Positions 9,672-44,559 of a stretch of 64,000 nt of DNA are shown here, piece by piece. A program made the position numbers and the translations under genes. The stretch is from Gemmatimonadota bacterium (GTDB lineage Bacteria; Gemmatimonadota; Gemmatimonadetes; Gemmatimonadales; GWC2-71-9): the NCBI GenBank assembly GCA_040388535.1, contig JAZKBR010000002.1:838838-902837 (forward strand), written 5' to 3'. Position 1 is the first letter of the stretch. Every line of letters starts with the position of its first letter. The notes under the pieces were generated by a model. The model did no database searches. It saw only the letters and a program-made list of their open reading frames with translations, and had not been told where the DNA came from.

Positions 9672-10733
9672 GTGAGGTTGACCATTCGTACCCTGATGCT
9701 CGCGCTCTCCGGAGCGATTCTTGTCGGCAGCTGCGCCCCGCGCTCAACCGCACGCGTGACCTGGGCGCCCGAACCCGGCGAACGCCATCTGGCCAACATT
9801 CAGCAGCTCACCTTCGGCGGCAACAACGCCGAGTCGTATTTCTCGGCCGATGGCAAGCGGCTGATCTTCCAGCGCCAGACCGAAGTCGATTCGGGATGTG
9901 ACCAGGAATACGTGATGCAGATCGACGGCACCAATGTGCGCCGGGTGTCGAACGGGAAGGGCCGCACCACTTGCGGCTACTTCATCGAACGCGATCAGCG
10001 GATCATCTACGCCTCCACGGCGGCCCATGACCCCAACTGTCCGCCGCCGGTCGATCGCTCACTGGGCTATGTCTGGCCGCTGGGGCACTTCGAGCTCTAC
10101 ACCGCGCGCACCGATGGCTCGGACACCCGTCAGCTCACCAACAACGGCTTCTACAACGCCGAGGCCACGGCGTCGGCCGACGGCAAGACGATTCTCTTCA
10201 CGTCGACACGTGATGGCGACATCGAGTTGTACACGATGCGGTCCGACGGCACCAATGTGAAGCGACTCACCCACCGCGTCGGTTACGACGGCGGCGCGTT
10301 CTTCTCGCCCGATGGCACGCAGATCGTCTGGCGCGCGCAGTATCCCGAGAGTGCGGCCGACAGCACCGACTATCAGGCCCTGCTCGGCAAGCGCCTGGTG
10401 CGCCCCGCCAAGCTCGAGCTCTGGATGGCCAATGCCGATGGCAGCAACCCGCATCAGGTGACCCATCTGGGCGGCGCCAATTTCGCGCCGTTCTTCCACC
10501 CTGATGGCAAGCGGATCATCTTCGCGTCCAACTACGAAAACCCGCGCGGGCGAAACTTCGACCTCTTCATCGTGCGTACGGACGGCACGGGTCTCGAAAA
10601 GGTCACCACGTCTGGCGAATTCGACGGCTTCCCGATGTTCTCTCCCGACGGGAAGCGGCTCGTCTTCGCCTCCAATCGCCACGGCAAGAGTGCCGGCGAG
10701 ACCGATCTGTTCATCGCCGACTGGAAGGAGTAG
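9672..10733 (+). CDS. TolB-like PD40/WD40 beta-propeller lipoprotein
   Basis: Periplasmic beta-propeller of unknown ligand. A short leader ends in a lipobox (LVGSC). The body holds at least five PD40 repeats of the type DGKTILFTSTRDGD.. and SPDGKRLVFASNRHG.., as in TolB and in the propeller domain of some peptidases. No peptidase domain follows. The GTG at 9672, just after the peroxiredoxin stop, gives a sensible leader; ATG 9693 is possible but would shorten it. It is separated from lepB by only two bases. Similar propellers often act as protein-interaction modules, so a role next to the two upstream peptidases is plausible but unproved. Confidence 0.82.
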   Translation: MRLTIRTLMLALSGAILVGSCAPRSTARVTWAPEPGERHLANIQQLTFGGNNAESYFSADGKRLIFQRQTEVDSGCDQEYVMQIDGTNVRRVSNGKGRTTCGYFIERDQRIIYASTAAHDPNCPPPVDRSLGYVWPLGHFELYTARTDGSDTRQLTNNGFYNAEATASADGKTILFTSTRDGDIELYTMRSDGTNVKRLTHRVGYDGGAFFSPDGTQIVWRAQYPESAADSTDYQALLGKRLVRPAKLELWMANADGSNPHQVTHLGGANFAPFFHPDGKRIIFASNYENPRGRNFDLFIVRTDGTGLEKVTTSGEFDGFPMFSPDGKRLVFASNRHGKSAGETDLFIADWKE

Positions 10734-36842: not shown

Positions 36843-37379
36843 TCAGGGGGCCGGTCGAGGTGCCGGAATCAACCGCACCCTTACCCCATCCGACGCCTCG
36901 CTCACCAGCACCACACTCCACGACCCGTCGTGCAATACCTCGACCAGCGGCTGTGGGAAAAACGGCAGCAATACGTCGAAGGGCGCGCGCTCGCTGTCGA
37001 TGCGCTCGAGAATGCGGAGCAGCGGTTCCGGCGGTGGCAACATCCGGAGGTCCTCCGCACCATCCTGCGCGATCGCACTCCCGGTTGCGCTGCTCGCGGT
37101 GCGCACTGCCGGCAGGCCCCGCCAGAACCAGACCGACCAGTCGCTCTCGCTGAACGATGCCGCATGATGCTGAAAGCCCCGCTGCTCCAGCAGCTGGATC
37201 AGCGGCACCGGGAGAAATGGCGTGCGCAGGTGGAGCACTCCCTCAGCCGGGAGTGCGGCCACGGCCTCGAGAATCTGCGCTTTGGGAGCACCGCCCGCAC
37301 GCAGCAGTTCGCGGAGGTCGAGTTCCACGAGGTGCGCCGGATCGAATTCAGGGAGGTACGAGTTGGCGTTGCTGGTCAT
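36843..37379 (-). CDS. DUF2249 domain protein (two copies of the domain)
   Basis: A 178-residue cytoplasmic protein with the DUF2249 pattern LVELDLRELLRAGGAPKAQILEAV..LPLIQLLEQRGF. A second, weaker copy begins near LLRILERIDSERAPFDVLLPFFPQPLVEVLHDGSW. DUF2249 proteins occur in nitrogen-oxide respiration loci, which fits this place beside the nos genes, but their biochemical role is not established. ATG 37379 is used because upstream in-frame sequence would run into the regulator gene. It is 46 bases downstream of the Crp/Fnr gene and likely co-transcribed. Confidence 0.8.
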   Translation of the reverse strand: MTSNANSYLPEFDPAHLVELDLRELLRAGGAPKAQILEAVAALPAEGVLHLRTPFLPVPLIQLLEQRGFQHHAASFSESDWSVWFWRGLPAVRTASSATGSAIAQDGAEDLRMLPPPEPLLRILERIDSERAPFDVLLPFFPQPLVEVLHDGSWSVVLVSEASDGVRVRLIPAPRPAP

Positions 37380-37425
37380 CCGGGGAATTTCGTCGCCGCA
37401 ATGCACGCCCGCTGTGACGGATGTC

Positions 37426-38124
37426 TCACATCCCACCACGACGGGCCCAGCTCCGCAGCTCCTCCGAAGGTGCCACCACAAAGCGACTCCCCTTCCTGTT
37501 CCGGATGAGTCCGTGGGTCGCGAGCTGCTTCAGCGCGCGTGACACCGATTCGCGCGCGGTCCCGATTTCGGTCGCGAGCTCCTCCTGGGTCCGCTCCAGC
37601 GTGAAGTGGATCCCGTCCGCATTGCTGCGCCCGGTCTGGTCGGCGTAGTCGGCCAGCAACATCGCGAGTCGCGCGGCGACATCGCGGAACGCCACCGTCT
37701 CGAGCAGCTGTACCAGATGCCGGAGCCGGTGACCGAGCGCGTGCACAACCGCCGCAGCGACTTCCGGATCGGTTCGGAAGGCGTGCTCGAACTCGGCGCG
37801 TGGCAGGAAGGCGAGTCGGGTCGGCATCGTCGTGACCGCGTGCGCCGGGTAGGGGCCACCATCGAAGAGCGGCAATTCAGCGACCGGCCGGCCGGGCCCC
37901 TCGACGGCCACGGTCTGCTCCCGACCATCGGGGGAGGAGCGAAAGACCCGGACCCTCCCCTCGAGCACCACATACAAGCCCGCGCAGGGATCGCCCGCAC
38001 GGAAGAGGACGAAGCCTTCACCGACCGCCCGCGGCACACAGCGCACCGCGAGCAACGCGATCACGCGCTCGTCGAGTTCGGCGAAGATCGGCACATTGCG
38101 CAGGACATCTACCAGGGAACTCAT
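37426..38124 (-). CDS. Crp/Fnr-family transcription regulator
   Basis: A 232-residue regulator with an N-terminal cyclic-nucleotide-binding fold (about residues 5-120), a long dimer helix and a winged HTH. The recognition helix reads R191-E192-S-V-S-R196, the CRP-type R-E-x-x-x-R that reads TGTGA, not the FNR type. Only two Cys occur in the sensor (C29, C47), so an FNR iron-sulfur cluster is unlikely. The phosphate-binding Arg-Ser of CRP is replaced by Pro-Ala (PYPAHAV), so cAMP is also unlikely. A DNR-like nitric oxide sensor is the best guess. Matching palindromes lie in its own promoter region and before nosZ. The start at 38124 begins the domain. Confidence 0.9.
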   Translation of the reverse strand: MSSLVDVLRNVPIFAELDERVIALLAVRCVPRAVGEGFVLFRAGDPCAGLYVVLEGRVRVFRSSPDGREQTVAVEGPGRPVAELPLFDGGPYPAHAVTTMPTRLAFLPRAEFEHAFRTDPEVAAAVVHALGHRLRHLVQLLETVAFRDVAARLAMLLADYADQTGRSNADGIHFTLERTQEELATEIGTARESVSRALKQLATHGLIRNRKGSRFVVAPSEELRSWARRGGM

Positions 38125-38151: not shown

Positions 38152-38167
38152 TGTGACAAGCGTCACG
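38152..38167. promoter_or_regulatory. CRP-type operator between the regulator and cupin genes
   Basis: TGTGACAAGCGTCACG fits TGTGA-N6-TCAC with one mismatch to the perfect palindrome. Its centre is 35 bases before the Crp/Fnr start codon and 62 bases before the cupin GTG. A GACGAT hexamer at 38189-38194 is spaced so that the site would be near -41.5, as in class II activation of the cupin gene. Confidence 0.65.
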
Positions 38168-38221
38168 GACTGGCATGGCGGCGCGGGCGACGATTGATGC
38201 AACCTTTTCCGGAGTTGCACC

Positions 38222-38545
38222 GTGCGTCCCTATGGCCCACCCCCCCCCACGCTTCCCGAAACGCGACCGACCATCTCCGACGTGGTCGAGGGTCCTGAAG
38301 GCCGGCATTTCACCATCACCTTCGGGCCGTGGCAACGCCTGCCAACCCACCGCAACGCGTCACGCATCCTGATCACCGCCGTCCGCGGCTCGGGAAGCTT
38401 CTCCCTCTCCGATGGCACCGCCGCCGCGCTCAACACCGGGGGCATTGTGCAGGTCGATCCCGACGTGCCGCACGCGGTTGCGGCCGGCGAGGATGGTCTC
38501 GAGATCACGGTCCACCTCATCGCCGGCTGCTGCGGGGTCTGCTGA
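38222..38545 (+). CDS. Small cupin-domain protein
   Basis: A 107-residue cupin: HRNASRILITAVRGSGSFSLSDG and VQVDPDVPHAVAAGEDGLEITVHLI form the two strands of the jelly-roll. The first half has only one clear metal-ligand His, and the protein ends in CCGVC, an unusual Cys cluster that could bind metal. The GTG start has a GGAG ribosome site, and the stop overlaps the next ATG by one base (TGATG). It probably belongs to the nitrogen-oxide regulon because the CRP-type site precedes it. Confidence 0.75.
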   Translation: MRPYGPPPPTLPETRPTISDVVEGPEGRHFTITFGPWQRLPTHRNASRILITAVRGSGSFSLSDGTAAALNTGGIVQVDPDVPHAVAAGEDGLEITVHLIAGCCGVC

Positions 38546-38976
38546 TGGAGCGCTACACGACCGGATTTCTGCGCGCGTCGTTGCTCTGGCTCGTGGCGGG
38601 CGTCTCGTTCGGCGTCGCGATGGCGGTCCACCCGGCGTGGGGGGCGTATCGCACCGCCCACCTCCATATGCTGCTGCTTGGGTTCGTGACGATGATGATC
38701 GCCGGCGTGGCGTATCACGTCTTCCCGCGCTTCGCGGCGACGCCGCTCTTCTCCCCGCGACTCGCGCGCATTCACCTGGTGGTCGCGAACATCGGCGTCA
38801 CGTTGATGGTGATCGGCTTTGTCTGGCGCCTGCATGCGCCACTCCCTGGCGGCGTCGTACTCGGATTTGGGGCGAGCTGCTCGGCCACCGGAGCGTATCT
38901 CCTCGCGTGGAATCTCTGGCGCACCCTCGATCGAGCGGCGTTGCCGCTCACGCGATTGGTCGTGCGCGCATCATGA
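38545..38976 (+). CDS. Four-helix membrane protein with conserved His, nos-linked
   Basis: A 143-residue protein with four predicted membrane helices. AHLHMLLLGFVTMMIAGVAYHVFPRF is reminiscent of the helices of heme-copper oxidase subunit I and NnrS-like proteins, with two His in HLH and one in YHVFPRF that could bind heme. It is far too short to be an oxidase. It overlaps the cupin by one base and is followed by the nosZ promoter. Function unknown; a heme or nitric oxide role is inference. Confidence 0.65.
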   Translation: MERYTTGFLRASLLWLVAGVSFGVAMAVHPAWGAYRTAHLHMLLLGFVTMMIAGVAYHVFPRFAATPLFSPRLARIHLVVANIGVTLMVIGFVWRLHAPLPGGVVLGFGASCSATGAYLLAWNLWRTLDRAALPLTRLVVRAS

Positions 38977-39053: not shown

Positions 39054-39069
39054 TGTGACAACGATCACA
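39054..39069. promoter_or_regulatory. CRP-type operator upstream of nosZ
   Basis: TGTGACAACGATCACA is a perfect TGTGA-N6-TCACA palindrome. Its centre (39061.5) is 41.5 bases before 39103; a GATGAT hexamer at 39091-39096 would serve as the -10, so the geometry fits class II activation. The nosZ start codon is 98 bases downstream of the site. Confidence 0.75.
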
Positions 39070-39166
39070 GCGCACGCCGACTGGCGAGTCGATGATCTAC
39101 TTGTGCCCCCGCGATGGCGGTGTGGCACCCGACCGGCCCCACGGGGCCACGAATAGTGAGGCAGGT

Positions 39167-41191
39167 ATGCGGCGATTCGGTGTTGGTCTGTTCGCTTCGC
39201 TCGCCCTGATGGGGGCGGTGGCCGGGTGCAGTACCCCGGCTCCGAAGGAGATGGTCAGCGGCGATGCCGCCAAGGCGGTGTACGTCGCGCCAGGCCAGTA
39301 CGATGAATTCTACGCCTTCCTCTCTGGTGGATTCAGCGGCCAGGTGACGGTGTATGCACTCCCCTCGGGTCGCCTGCTCAAGACGATCCCGGTCTTCTCT
39401 CAGTTCCCCGAGAACGGCTACGGCTACAACGAAGAAACCAAGCCGATGCTCGAGACGACCTTCGGCACCGTGCCCTGGGACGATACCCACCACGCCGAGC
39501 TGTCGCAGACCAATGCGGTGCCGGATGGGCGCTGGCTCTTCATCAACGGGAACAACACGCCCCGCGTGGCCCGCATCGACCTGACCCGCTTCGAGACGGA
39601 AGAGATTCTCCAGATTCCGAACGCCGCGGGCGGGCATGCCTCGCCCTTCACCACGGCGAACTCCGAGTACATCGTCTCGGCGACGCGCTTCTCGGTGCCA
39701 ATCCCCAATGCCGACGTGCCGATCGAGAGCTACAAGGAGCATTTCAAGGGAACGCTCTCGTTCATCAAGGCCGACGTGCCGGGGAAGATGGATATCGCCT
39801 TCCAGCTCCTGATGCCGGGGTACAACTACGACCTCGGCCATGCCGGCAAGGGGCCGAGTGATGGCTGGTTCTTCTTCACGACGTACAACACCGAGCAGGC
39901 CTATACCAAGCTCGAGCTGAACGCCTCGAAGAACGACAAGGACTACATCGCTGCCGTGAACTGGAAGCTGGCCGAGCGGTGCGTGAAAGACGGCAAGGCC
40001 AAGGCCTTCCCGTCACGCTATGCGCACAACTACATGGATCCCGATTCCCGGCAGGCGATGGTCGAATTCAAGACGTCGGTGCAGATGCTGGAACCGGCGG
40101 CCTGCCCTGGTGTGGTGTACCTGCTTCCCACGCCGAAGTCGCCGCACGGCGTCGACATCGATCCGAGCGGCGAATACATCGTCGGCGGCGGCAAGCTGGC
40201 CACCGTGATTCCGGTGCATTCGGCGACGAAGATCAAGGCCGCGATCGCCGCCAAGGCCTTCGACGGCGATATCGGTGGCATTCCAGTGCTGAAGTACGAG
40301 GCGACCATTGCGGGCGAAGTACAGAAGCCGGGCCTCGGCCCGCTGCACACCGAGTTCGACGGCAAGGGCAACGCCTACACCACGATGTTCATCTCGTCGG
40401 AAGTGGTGAAGTGGAAGCTGGGCACGTGGGAAGTACTCGACCGCGCGCCGACGTACTACTCGCCCGGGCACCTGATGATTCCCGGGGGCGATTCGAAGCA
40501 GCCGTGGGGCAAGTATCTGCTGGCAATGAACAAGATCACCAAGGACCGCTACCTCCCGACCGGTGGCGAGCTGGCGCAGTCGGCACAGCTCTATGACATC
40601 AGTGGCGACAAGATGAAGCTGATCCTCGATTTCCCGACCCAGGGCGAGCCCCACTACGCCCAGGCGTTGCCGGCGAGCATCCTCAAGGACAAGCAGGTCA
40701 AGTTCTTCTCGCTCGCGAACAACAAGTCGCCGTGGGTCACGCGGTCGGAAGCCGAAGGCGGCATCACGCGGAAGGGGAAGGCCGTTCACATCAAGATGAT
40801 GGCGATCCGCAGCCACTTCGCCCCGGACAATCTCGAAGGGGTCGAGGTCGGTGACAGCGTCTTCTTTCACGTCACCAACGTCGAACAGGACTGGGACATC
40901 CTCCACGGCTTCGCCGTGCTCGGGATGAACACTGCCGAACTGATCATGCAGCCGGGCGAGACCCGGACGCTGGTCTGGATCCCGCAGGCACCGGGTGTCT
41001 ACCCGTTCTACTGCACCGACTTCTGCTCGGCACTACACCAGGAGATGCAGGGATACGTCCGGGTGAGTGCCAAGGGTGCCAACGTGCCGCTCAAGGCCAA
41101 TATCTCGGCCAAGGCTGCAACTCAGCTCTCGCGGATGAACGCCGTGCCGAAGCCGATGGATCACCAGCACGGCGCCGCAGGCGGGAAGTAA
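39167..41191 (+). CDS. nosZ: Nitrous oxide reductase, Sec-type (clade II)
   Basis: Reduces N2O to N2 in the periplasm using electrons from cytochrome c or cupredoxin. The 674-residue protein has a Sec lipoprotein-like leader (ALMGAVAGC) instead of a Tat leader, the hallmark of clade II. CuZ ligands include H108-H109 in DDTHH, with further His in YAHNYMDPD, SPHGVDIDP, LGPLHTEFDG and GEPHYAQ. The C-terminal cupredoxin CuA site is intact: H580 in DILHGF, C616 and C620 in CTDFCSALH, H624 and M627. ATG 39167 follows an AGGCAGG ribosome site; an upstream in-frame start would include the operator region and is rejected. Confidence 0.96.
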   Translation: MRRFGVGLFASLALMGAVAGCSTPAPKEMVSGDAAKAVYVAPGQYDEFYAFLSGGFSGQVTVYALPSGRLLKTIPVFSQFPENGYGYNEETKPMLETTFGTVPWDDTHHAELSQTNAVPDGRWLFINGNNTPRVARIDLTRFETEEILQIPNAAGGHASPFTTANSEYIVSATRFSVPIPNADVPIESYKEHFKGTLSFIKADVPGKMDIAFQLLMPGYNYDLGHAGKGPSDGWFFFTTYNTEQAYTKLELNASKNDKDYIAAVNWKLAERCVKDGKAKAFPSRYAHNYMDPDSRQAMVEFKTSVQMLEPAACPGVVYLLPTPKSPHGVDIDPSGEYIVGGGKLATVIPVHSATKIKAAIAAKAFDGDIGGIPVLKYEATIAGEVQKPGLGPLHTEFDGKGNAYTTMFISSEVVKWKLGTWEVLDRAPTYYSPGHLMIPGGDSKQPWGKYLLAMNKITKDRYLPTGGELAQSAQLYDISGDKMKLILDFPTQGEPHYAQALPASILKDKQVKFFSLANNKSPWVTRSEAEGGITRKGKAVHIKMMAIRSHFAPDNLEGVEVGDSVFFHVTNVEQDWDILHGFAVLGMNTAELIMQPGETRTLVWIPQAPGVYPFYCTDFCSALHQEMQGYVRVSAKGANVPLKANISAKAATQLSRMNAVPKPMDHQHGAAGGK

Positions 41192-41193
41192 TC

Positions 41194-41829
41194 ATGAACC
41201 GGCGGGCGCGCCTCCTGATGGGCATCGCAGCGATTCTCCCGGCTGCGGCTGCACTGTGGCCACTCTGGGAGGTGCGTTTGCTGGCCCCGCAATACCCCGA
41301 GGGTCTCGGCATGCGGATCTTCGCGCATACCGTGACGGGGCTCAAGCCGAATGATCTCGGCAGCATCAACGGATTGAATCACTACATCGGGATGATGCCG
41401 ATCGAGCCGGGGGCGATCCCCGAGCTGCGTTACATGCCGTGGCTGCTCGCGGCGCTGGGAGTGGGGGCACTGCTGGTCGCGGTGCTCAACTCGCGCCGGC
41501 TCCTCGGCGTCTGGATCGGGACCTTTGCCCTTCTTGGTGCCGTCGGTCTCTGGGACTTCTGGCGCTGGGAGTACGACTACGGGCACAACCTCGATATGGA
41601 AAATGCCATCATCATCATCCCTGGAATGAGCTATCAGCCCCCGCTGATCGGGAGCAAGCAGTTGCTCAACTTCACGGCCACGGCGTGGCCGGGCGGCGCC
41701 GCGATCGCGCTCGGTCTCGCATTTGTCATTGCCGTGCTGGTCTGGTGGACTAGCCGGACGCCCCGCGCTGCTGTGGCGGTGCGGGCGACCGGCAGCGCTC
41801 CTGATCGCGGAGCTCAGGTTCCGGTATGA
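41194..41829 (+). CDS. nos-cluster membrane protein
   Basis: A 211-residue protein with about four membrane helices and a conserved-looking periplasmic segment WDFWRWEYDYGHNLDMENAI and PGMSYQPPLIGSKQLLNF. It sits between nosZ and nosD, overlaps nosD by 4 nt (ATGA) and starts three bases after nosZ. Membrane proteins at this place are known in other clade II clusters (for example NosB in Campylobacterota), but I cannot show homology by eye. A role in electron transfer or NosZ maturation is inferred from position. Confidence 0.72.
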   Translation: MNRRARLLMGIAAILPAAAALWPLWEVRLLAPQYPEGLGMRIFAHTVTGLKPNDLGSINGLNHYIGMMPIEPGAIPELRYMPWLLAALGVGALLVAVLNSRRLLGVWIGTFALLGAVGLWDFWRWEYDYGHNLDMENAIIIIPGMSYQPPLIGSKQLLNFTATAWPGGAAIALGLAFVIAVLVWWTSRTPRAAVAVRATGSAPDRGAQVPV

Positions 41830-43049
41830 TGTTGTCACTGGCGGTACTGCTGATTGCCGGAGACACGACCGTGGTCTCACCGGCCGGCCCGTATCGCACG
41901 ATCGCGGCCGCCGTAGCGGCGACGCCTGCAGGCGGCACCGTGCTCGTGCGCAGCGGACGCTACCGTGAGCCACTGATTGTGTTGAATCGCGCGGTGACCA
42001 TTCACGGCGAGCATGGTGCCATCATCGACGGAGAAGGGCAGCACGCACTGATGGTCATTCGCGCAGATGAGGTCACCGTGCAAGGGCTCACCTTCACCGC
42101 GACCGGCGGCTCATTCACCGAAGACCGCGCCGCACTGCGCGCAGAGAATGCCCACCACTGCCGCATCCTCGACAACCGGTTCGAGGAGACTTTCTTCGCC
42201 GTCTATCTCGCCGGGACCGTGGCGTGTGAGGTCGGTGGCAACCGGATTGCCGGCACGATGGGGCGCGTGGAAGCAGCGATGGGCAACGGGGTCCACTCGT
42301 GGTCATCCCGCGAGGCGGATATCCACGACAACATCATCACCGGCCATCGCGACGGGATCTACCTCGAGTTCAACCGGCTCGCCAACGTCCGCAACAACCG
42401 GAGCGAGCACAACTATCGCTACGGCATGCACTTCATGTATTCCGACTCGTCGCACTACACCGGCAACACCTTCGCCGCGAATGGCGGGGGTGTGGCGGTG
42501 ATGTACACCAAAGTGGTGACGATGGAACGGAACACCTTTGCTGACAACGGCGGTCCGACCTCGTATGGTCTGCTGCTCAAGGAGATCGCCGATGCGCAAC
42601 TGATCGGCAATCTGTTCCGGCGTAACACGACGGGCCTGCTTGCCGACGGCGCCGATCGGGTGATCGCCACGGGCAATCGTTTCGAGGAGAATGGCTGGGG
42701 GCTGCGTTTGCTTGGCAGTACCAGCGGTGGAACGATCTCGGGAAACCTCTTCCGGCGGAATTCCTTCGATGTTGCCGTGAACGGCGCCGGCACCTCCACC
42801 GACTTCACCGGTAACTGGTGGGAGTCCTATCACGGCTGGGACCTCGACCGCGATGGACGCGGGGATGTGCCGCACCACCCGGTGCGCCTCTTCGCGATGC
42901 TGGTGGAGCATGCCCAGGCATCCCTGCTGCTGCAACGCTCGCTCTTCGTGCGCCTGCTCGATGCGGCTGAGCGTGTGCTGCCGGTGCTCACGCCGGCGAA
43001 TGTCATCGATGCACGCCCGCTGATGCGGGCGCCGAAGGAGGGCGTGTGA
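41826..43049 (+). CDS. nosD: NosD, periplasmic NosZ maturation protein
   Basis: A 407-residue right-handed beta-helix of the carbohydrate-binding/CASH type. A short leader (LSLAVLLIAGDTTVVSPAG) is followed by many parallel-helix coils (ILDNRFEETFFAVYLAGT, VRNNRSEHNYRYGMHFMYSD, NTFAANGGGVAVMYT, NRFEENGWGLRLLGSTSGG). NosD works with NosF and NosY to supply sulfur and assist CuZ assembly. The start overlaps the previous gene and the end overlaps nosF. Confidence 0.95.
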   Translation: MMLSLAVLLIAGDTTVVSPAGPYRTIAAAVAATPAGGTVLVRSGRYREPLIVLNRAVTIHGEHGAIIDGEGQHALMVIRADEVTVQGLTFTATGGSFTEDRAALRAENAHHCRILDNRFEETFFAVYLAGTVACEVGGNRIAGTMGRVEAAMGNGVHSWSSREADIHDNIITGHRDGIYLEFNRLANVRNNRSEHNYRYGMHFMYSDSSHYTGNTFAANGGGVAVMYTKVVTMERNTFADNGGPTSYGLLLKEIADAQLIGNLFRRNTTGLLADGADRVIATGNRFEENGWGLRLLGSTSGGTISGNLFRRNSFDVAVNGAGTSTDFTGNWWESYHGWDLDRDGRGDVPHHPVRLFAMLVEHAQASLLLQRSLFVRLLDAAERVLPVLTPANVIDARPLMRAPKEGV

Positions 43050-43771
43050 TGATTCACCTTCGCAGCGTGACGAAGCGTTTCGGCCAGCGCGAAGTGTTGA
43101 CCGGTCTCGTGGCCGACATCGCGACCGGCAGGGTCACCGGGCTGGTGGGGCCGAACGGGGCCGGGAAGACCACCCTGCTCAAGCTGCTGCTCGGCCTCGC
43201 GACGCCGGATGCCGGCACCATCGCGGTCGGTTCGCACCTGCTCGATGGCAGCCCTGGTTACCGTGCGAGCATTGGGTACATGCCGCAGATCGTGAACTTT
43301 CCGGCGCATCTCTCCGGCAAGGAACTGCTGCGGACCCTCGCCTCGCTTCGCGGCTCGGCCGTGGCGCCTGATCTCTCGCTGGCCGAAGCGTTCGAGCTGG
43401 GTGACGCGTTCGAGCGGCCACTCGGTGTTCTCTCGGGTGGAACGCGCCAGAAGATCAACGCGATCCTCGCCTTTGCGTTTCGCCCCGAACTGCTGGTGCT
43501 CGACGAACCCACCTCGGGGCTCGACCCAGTGGCCGCGCGGGTGCTCAAGGATCGCATCCTCGCGGAGCGTGCCTCCGGCACCACCGTGCTGATCACGTCG
43601 CACGTCCTTCAGGAACTCGAAGTCCTCGCCGACGATGTTCTCTTTCTCGCCGACGGCCGGGCGAAGTGGCAGGGTGCCATCCATCAGTTCAAGGTGACCA
43701 CCGGACAGAGCACACTTGAAGGGGCTATTGCCGCGCTGCTGTCGGGACGGGCCAGGATGGCGGTCGCATGA
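43049..43771 (+). CDS. nosF: NosF, ABC transporter ATPase for NosZ maturation
   Basis: A 240-residue ABC ATPase. Walker A GPNGAGKT (residues 34-41), signature LSGGTRQ, Walker B LLVLDEPTSGLD and switch His in ITSHVLQE are all present. It pairs with NosY and NosD. ATG 43049 is preferred; a GTG three bases earlier is also in frame and would give the usual GTGA overlap with nosD. The stop overlaps nosY by 4 nt. Confidence 0.95.
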   Translation: MIHLRSVTKRFGQREVLTGLVADIATGRVTGLVGPNGAGKTTLLKLLLGLATPDAGTIAVGSHLLDGSPGYRASIGYMPQIVNFPAHLSGKELLRTLASLRGSAVAPDLSLAEAFELGDAFERPLGVLSGGTRQKINAILAFAFRPELLVLDEPTSGLDPVAARVLKDRILAERASGTTVLITSHVLQELEVLADDVLFLADGRAKWQGAIHQFKVTTGQSTLEGAIAALLSGRARMAVA

Positions 43772-44559
43772 ACACGCTCGCACCGCTGCTCCGCTTCTCG
43801 TTGCGTGAAGCCTTCCGTGGTCGCTGGCTGATCGGTGTCGTCTGCACGCTCGCACTCACAGGTGAATTGCTGATTCGCTTTGCGGGTGGTGGTGCCACCA
43901 CGATCGTCTCCCTCATTGACGTGGTGCTGATTCTCACTCCGATGCTCGGCCTCGTCGCCGGCACGGTGCAGGTGCATCACGCGCGCGAGCTGACCGAGCT
44001 GCTGCTGGCCCAGCCGGTATCGCGGCGACGGCTCTTCACGGGCCTCTACCTCGGGAATGTGATTCCCCTCGCAACAGCAATCGTCGTGGGGCTGGTCGCA
44101 CCATTTCTCTGGCACGGCCTGCTGTTCGGCGAAATGGGGATGCGGCTGGCACCGCTGCTCCTCGTCGCCGTCGGGCTGACCGGGATCAGCAGTGCCCTCG
44201 CGTTCCTGGTGGCGCTGCGCATTGACGATCGCGTCCGGGCACTCGGCGCCGCCCTTGGGCTTTGGCTCATCGCCGCCGTACTCTGGGATGGCCTCATCCT
44301 GCTGCTCGCGGTGATGATCGGACAGCGTCCGGTCGAGGCGCCGATGCTGGCGGTCCTGGCGCTCAATCCGATCGATGTGGGTCGCGTTCTCCTGCTCCTC
44401 GGGAGTGATGGTGCGGCCTTGCTGGGCTATACCGGTGCGGTGGTGCAGCACGCACTCGGCACCGAAGTGGGTCGCGCCGCCCTGGTGCTGGCCCTGTCGC
44501 TCTGGCTCGTGCTGCCGCTGGCCGCCGCGACGCGCGCATTTCAACGGAAGAGTTTCTAA
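43768..44559 (+). CDS. nosY: NosY, ABC permease for NosZ maturation
   Basis: A 263-residue permease with six hydrophobic helices, typical of NosY and other type-5 ABC permeases (PLLRFSLREAFRGRWLIG at the start, HHARELTELLLAQPVSRRRLFTGLYLG after TM2). It forms the membrane part of NosDFY. The ATG overlaps the nosF stop (ATGA), and the cupredoxin follows 24 bases later. Confidence 0.93.
   Translation: MNTLAPLLRFSLREAFRGRWLIGVVCTLALTGELLIRFAGGGATTIVSLIDVVLILTPMLGLVAGTVQVHHARELTELLLAQPVSRRRLFTGLYLGNVIPLATAIVVGLVAPFLWHGLLFGEMGMRLAPLLLVAVGLTGISSALAFLVALRIDDRVRALGAALGLWLIAAVLWDGLILLLAVMIGQRPVEAPMLAVLALNPIDVGRVLLLLGSDGAALLGYTGAVVQHALGTEVGRAALVLALSLWLVLPLAAATRAFQRKSF

Follow-up and report, generated by a model that had tools for sequence, protein, structure and literature searches.

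In the window (the whole stretch of 64,000 nucleotides that was analysed), the gene crp (37426–38124, minus strand) encodes a Crp/Fnr-family regulator of 232 aa that most likely serves nosZ and the neighbouring genes of the nos locus as a dedicated local class II activator, acting through three operators termed here O1, O2 and O3. This reading is favoured because the sites are conserved, stand at a fixed spacing from a -10-like hexamer and are coupled to the regulator gene, and because one member of the genus lacks both operator and regulator. In the mechanism that we infer, a dimer of the regulator would bind TGTGAC-N4-GTCACR operators, each centred 41.5 bp before a transcription start in place of the -35 element, and would act with neither cAMP sensing nor an FNR-type iron-sulphur cluster. 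From O3 it would drive nosZ and probably also the nos genes behind it, from O2 the cupin and COX1-like genes, and from O1 a DUF2249 gene expressed as a leaderless mRNA. The original prediction held that a regulator with CRP-like DNA reading but without cAMP contacts controls nosZ, and the conserved, regulator-coupled operators make this very probable.

The nosZ genes of Gemmatimonadota include some of the most abundant in soil (PMC10581226). The product of nosZ destroys the greenhouse gas N2O, and the literature found held nothing on how these soil bacteria switch the gene on; no paper on this regulator or operator in Gemmatimonadota was found in a search that covered few subscription journals. 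The analysis yields a specific regulator together with operators, predicted starts of transcription and a candidate regulon, all open to direct testing.

Operators, conservation and coupling to the regulator gene

O3 (39054–39069, plus strand) is the perfect TGTGA-N6-TCACA palindrome TGTGACAACGATCACA that had been reported before nosZ, and its centre lies 105.5 nt upstream of the nosZ ATG at 39167. The one-mismatch copy reported between the Crp/Fnr gene and the cupin gene is likewise present as O2 (TGTGACAAGCGTCACG; 38152–38167, plus strand). The locus holds three operators rather than the two noted earlier, O1 having been missed: this site (TGTGACGGATGTCTCA; 37413–37428, read on the minus strand as TGAGACATCCGTCACA) lies before the DUF2249 gene and overlaps the crp stop codon, and other genera have the 16-mer TGAGACATCCGTCACA upstream of an Mrp-like gene.

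By count alone the palindrome is weak evidence for an operator. Matches with up to two mismatches number 18 in the window and 16.8 ± 3.5 in shuffles, and the perfect palindrome occurs at three places in the 3.72-Mb genome versus one for the reversed pattern. A window count that does not exceed shuffles, and another perfect match between ATP-synthase genes, are what would be expected if the palindromes were chance matches or had some other role, such as terminator or coding constraint; set against the conservation of the sites across species amid unconserved flanks, their coupling to the regulator and their fixed promoter spacing, this explanation has next to no probability. It is because the 16-mer is conserved across species, not because of the counts, that the palindrome at nosZ is taken as a real, conserved operator.

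Among nosZ orthologs drawn from 60 relatives, TGTGACAA[CT]CGTCACG occurs upstream of nosZ in six other species of the genus, 116–142 nt from the position that corresponds to the nosZ ATG (in the window, 113 nt). The usual operator of the genus is TGTGACAAYCGTCACG, the fully symmetric version in the window being the exception. When the seven nosZ promoters are compared without gaps, identity is 91% over the operator, 35% over the following 21 nt and 26% over the DNA immediately upstream of the operator. The operator was not found before nosZ of G006, a member of the same genus that has nosZ and no regulator ortholog, nor at nosZ of other genera, including G045, G047 and G055, which carry the regulator elsewhere in the genome. 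The expected conservation of the palindrome upstream of orthologous nosZ genes therefore holds within the genus (seven species) but not at nosZ of other genera. Since G045, G047 and G055 have the regulator away from nosZ and a nosZ without the site, nosZ seems to have been recruited to the regulator in one genus, which suggests a route by which the gene came under an N-oxide regulator that already existed there.

In six of the seven genus members with the operator, the genes run DUF2249–crp–(cupin)–COX1-like–nosZ; the contig of the seventh (G008) stops short of crp. Regulator orthologs (about 55% identity or more) are also found in other Gemmatimonadota, and 24 loci with the regulator, 23 from Gemmatimonadota and one from Anaerolineae, were fetched from genome contigs. 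With up to one mismatch allowed, these loci hold 23 sites in the 62 kb that lie no further than 1 kb from the regulator gene, versus 11 in the remaining 292 kb, and the reversed pattern has no match. TGTGAC-N4-GTCACR operators lie near most of the regulator orthologs in the 23 Gemmatimonadota loci, and at five of the 24 loci no site, even with one mismatch, stands as close as 1 kb to the gene.

Promoter architecture and candidate regulon

A hexamer of the form NANNNT stands exactly 21 nt from one operator end in 34 of 37 operators (24 loci) and within one base of that distance in all 37, whereas the next-best distance accounts for 6 of the 37; these operators come from related loci, and the nominal probability of the spacing is accordingly overstated. 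The class II position of CRP is -41.5. Read from this spacing, the hexamer is a predicted -10 box and the operator is centred at -41.5 (34 of 37 operators), overlapping the -35 region in the manner of a class II CRP-dependent promoter. The first base of the -10 hexamers often differs from that of TATAAT. All seven nosZ promoters share a G, an A and a T at offsets 37, 38 and 42, counted from the operator start, and the spacer is unconserved. These bases belong to the predicted -10 box of nosZ, GATGAT (39091–39096, plus strand), from which transcription is predicted to start at 39103 and to give a 64-nt leader. For the cupin operon the predicted -10 box is GACGAT (38189–38194, plus strand), again at class II spacing, with a predicted start at 38201. 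Before the DUF2249 gene the corresponding box is GAAATT (37386–37391, minus strand), and the predicted start, 37379, is the A of the ATG. Start codons peak at offset 33 (operator centre to ATG 41.5) in 16 of 74 half-sites, mostly of O1 type, and because this peak puts the ATG at +1, the DUF2249 mRNA is predicted to be leaderless. The same architecture is seen in an independent phylum: in the Anaerolineae locus (L143) two perfect TGTGAC-N4-GTCACA operators, at 10716 and 13217, are accompanied at this offset by TATGCT and TACTTT, and they adjoin a nitrate reductase gene and two genes of the Crp/Fnr family (genes named by sequence inspection).

O2 has its -10 box on the cupin side and none at class II distance on the crp side. 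As crp stands on the side without a -10 box, the further claim that the regulator controls itself is not supported as stated, and O2 may have no effect on crp or may repress it. The regulator could also bind its operators as a repressor rather than as a class II activator: in several genomes about 36 bp separate O2 from the crp ATG, a position in which it could cover the crp promoter, and repression of nosZ by a Crp/Fnr protein has been inferred in Nitrosophilus (PMC11539149). Repression is nevertheless a rather unlikely mode of action, as the spacing fixed at -41.5 is that of an activator and leaves no separate -35 element, and one exact spacing is not needed by a repressor. Class II activation remains the preferred reading.

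Sites recur in the regulator loci upstream of a gene resembling copper nitrite reductase (TIGR02376, about 160 bits, below cut-off) and of Mrp/ApbC-like, DUF2249, COX1-like and full COX1 genes. When the whole of the window's own genome (G000) was scanned with the loose motif, 39 strand hits were obtained versus 24 for the reversed pattern, and the scan was rejected as too noisy to define a regulon. Far more specific is the composite pattern of operator plus -10 box (at most one mismatch), which occurs at four places in this genome, three of them O1–O3. The perfect palindrome between the ATP-synthase genes, TGTGAAAATAGTCACA (L031 2008–2023; G000 C1:431807), was rejected as a regulon member; it is identical in G001 and in G006, the latter without the regulator. 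Another perfect palindrome lies 49 nt before coxB (L032 2063–2078; G000 C2:191062), and is perfect at the same place in G001, has one mismatch in G005 and is absent in G002, G007 and G009; it was left out of the regulon because it is patchy in the genus and kept in G005, which has no regulator. A further exact copy, TGTGACAATCGTCACG, is found in G001 (L093 9563–9578; C68:41562), 19 kb from nosZ, and was not among the matches of the composite search.

The regulator, its DNA reading and its signal

Membership of the Crp/Fnr superfamily is given by an N-terminal cNMP-type sensor domain, PF00027 (E 5e-22), and a C-terminal Crp-type HTH, PF13545 (HTH_Crp_2, E 1e-14), both above cut-off, together with fold matches that include DNR (3dkw). 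The AlphaFold model has a mean pLDDT of 87, and the nearest solved structures, at about 30% identity, are M. tuberculosis CRP and GlxR. The recognition helix, GTARESVSR, carries R191, E192 and R196, which confirms the R191-E192-x-x-x-R196 set read earlier from the protein, and ARESVSR is invariant in 28 regulator sequences, the window's included. The combination of an R-E-x-x-x-R helix with TGTGA half-sites is that of CRP-type DNA specificity and supports CRP-like DNA reading by this protein. The helix alone names no reader, because it is shared by the second Crp/Fnr protein of the genome (C4:385404), the only other protein found there with the sensor domain. That this paralog reads the operators is extremely unlikely: no close ortholog of it was found in the other operator-bearing genus members searched, whereas the local regulator has orthologs in them, and the sites cluster around the local regulator gene. 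The paralog was rejected on the first of these grounds as the common reader of the sites.

The signal is considered here from the residues of the sensor domain and from the candidate regulon. C29 and C47 are the only cysteines of the protein; the four 4Fe-4S cysteines of FNR are missing, as had been noted, and no TTGAT palindrome with fewer than two mismatches, the operator type of FNR and of DNR/NnrR, was found before nosZ. The absence of a cAMP-contact Arg-Ser pair also holds good: R82-S83, the pair in E. coli CRP, aligns with P93-A94, within a Y92-P93-A94 triplet that is invariant in the 28 sequences. Similarly, T134/N135 of M. tuberculosis CRP, which contact cAMP, align with L137/V138 on the C-helix. 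The NCBIfam CRP model gives 69.6 bits against a cut-off of 266, and cAMP sensing is judged unlikely. Kinship to M. tuberculosis CRP and GlxR, and a pocket glutamate (E83) that is kept, would suit a true CRP responding to cAMP or another cyclic nucleotide; such an identity is very unlikely given the replaced contacts at both places and a regulon that is local and respiratory, not global.

Among the 28 sequences no His, Cys or Met is invariant (C29 in 25, C47 in 26 and H136 in 26), so that no fully kept residue points to a heme or metal ligand, and C29/C47 were rejected as a universal sensor, neither being invariant. The gene set, comprising nosZ here and nirK-like, Mrp-like, DUF2249 and COX1-like genes elsewhere, suggests a signal of N-oxide respiration; our best guess from it is NO, with O2 or redox state less likely.

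Related systems and the nosZ locus

Among the Crp/Fnr proteins that regulate N-oxide respiration (DNR, NnrR, HcpR and DnrT), the regulator represents a new variant. DNR and NnrR are activators of nir and nos genes in denitrifying proteobacteria and control nos genes through TTGAT boxes (PMC1274295), whereas the best match to the DNR site, TTGATnnnnATCAA, before nosZ in the window has two mismatches and lies at -364. HcpR of Desulfovibrio, an N-oxide regulator, resembles the window protein in its family, its R180/E181-type helix, its CRP-like palindrome (wTGTGAnnnnnnTCACAw), the lack of FNR cysteines and its link to N-oxide metabolism (PMC1274295); nosZ, however, is not among its reported targets, which are hcp, frdX and sulphate-reduction genes, the likeness drawn here is one of features, and HcpR was not matched among the NCBIfam hits of the regulator. 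DnrT of Thermus thermophilus, also CRP-like, activates a local locus for nitrate respiration but works at nar with a partner, DnrS (PMC6282519); it is compared here by its described role. Thermus drpA encodes a DUF2249 protein, DrpA, that depends on DnrT and ties this domain to nitrate respiration (PMC6282519), and in haloarchaea DUF2249 is induced along with denitrification (PMC11218638). Crp/Fnr control has been proposed for clade II nosZ in Wolinella (Nss) and Nitrosophilus, but with the motif TTGA-N6-TCAA, which was used to search Nitrosophilus nosZ (PMC11539149). M. tuberculosis CRP and C. glutamicum GlxR, the closest in structure, share the RE recognition helix; they are cAMP-binding global regulators, whereas their cAMP contacts are not conserved in the window regulator.

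A wider proposal, to which we give somewhat less than even weight, is that the protein represents an undescribed Crp/Fnr subfamily of Gemmatimonadota, with a look-alike in Chloroflexota, that would be the main switch of N-oxide respiration in these phyla. Its marks would be TGTGAC-N4-GTCACR operators, rigid -41.5 promoters, often leaderless mRNAs, a sensing chemistry with no invariant His or Cys, and the recruitment of nosZ in one genus.

The genes that the operators would serve are assigned as follows. On the minus strand lies the DUF2249 gene (36843–37379; PF10006, 61.7 bits). On the plus strand are a small cupin gene (38222–38545; Cupin_2 E 4e-4, below the Pfam cut-off), whose orthologs adjoin crp in relatives, and a gene for a small COX1-like membrane protein (38545–38976; PF00115, 41.6 bits). 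This 143-aa protein repeatedly adjoins the regulator, sometimes in two copies. They are followed by nosZ (39167–41191, plus strand), which encodes a clade II Sec-type nitrous oxide reductase (TIGR04246, 919 bits, cut-off 625). Behind nosZ are genes for a membrane protein in the nosB position, with no family match, nosD, an ABC ATPase (nosF) and an ABC permease (nosY) (41194–44559, plus strand), in an order that is the same in relatives.

The nosZ ATG, read from the sequence, is preceded by GAGGCAGG. Just before the ribosome binding site the predicted leader holds a stem-loop, GGCCCCACGGGGCC (39135–39148, plus strand), and a GGCCC-loop-GGGCC stem-loop of this kind is present in all seven nosZ leaders that follow the operator and in one further nosZ among those scanned. 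Covariation is too little to prove an RNA structure, and no Rfam family matched the leader. A second element, GTGCC...GGCAC, lies upstream of the GGCCC stem-loop in several of these leaders. The N-terminus of NosZ itself (39167–39235) has a lipobox-like signal, AVAGC, which suggests a lipoprotein form of clade II NosZ.
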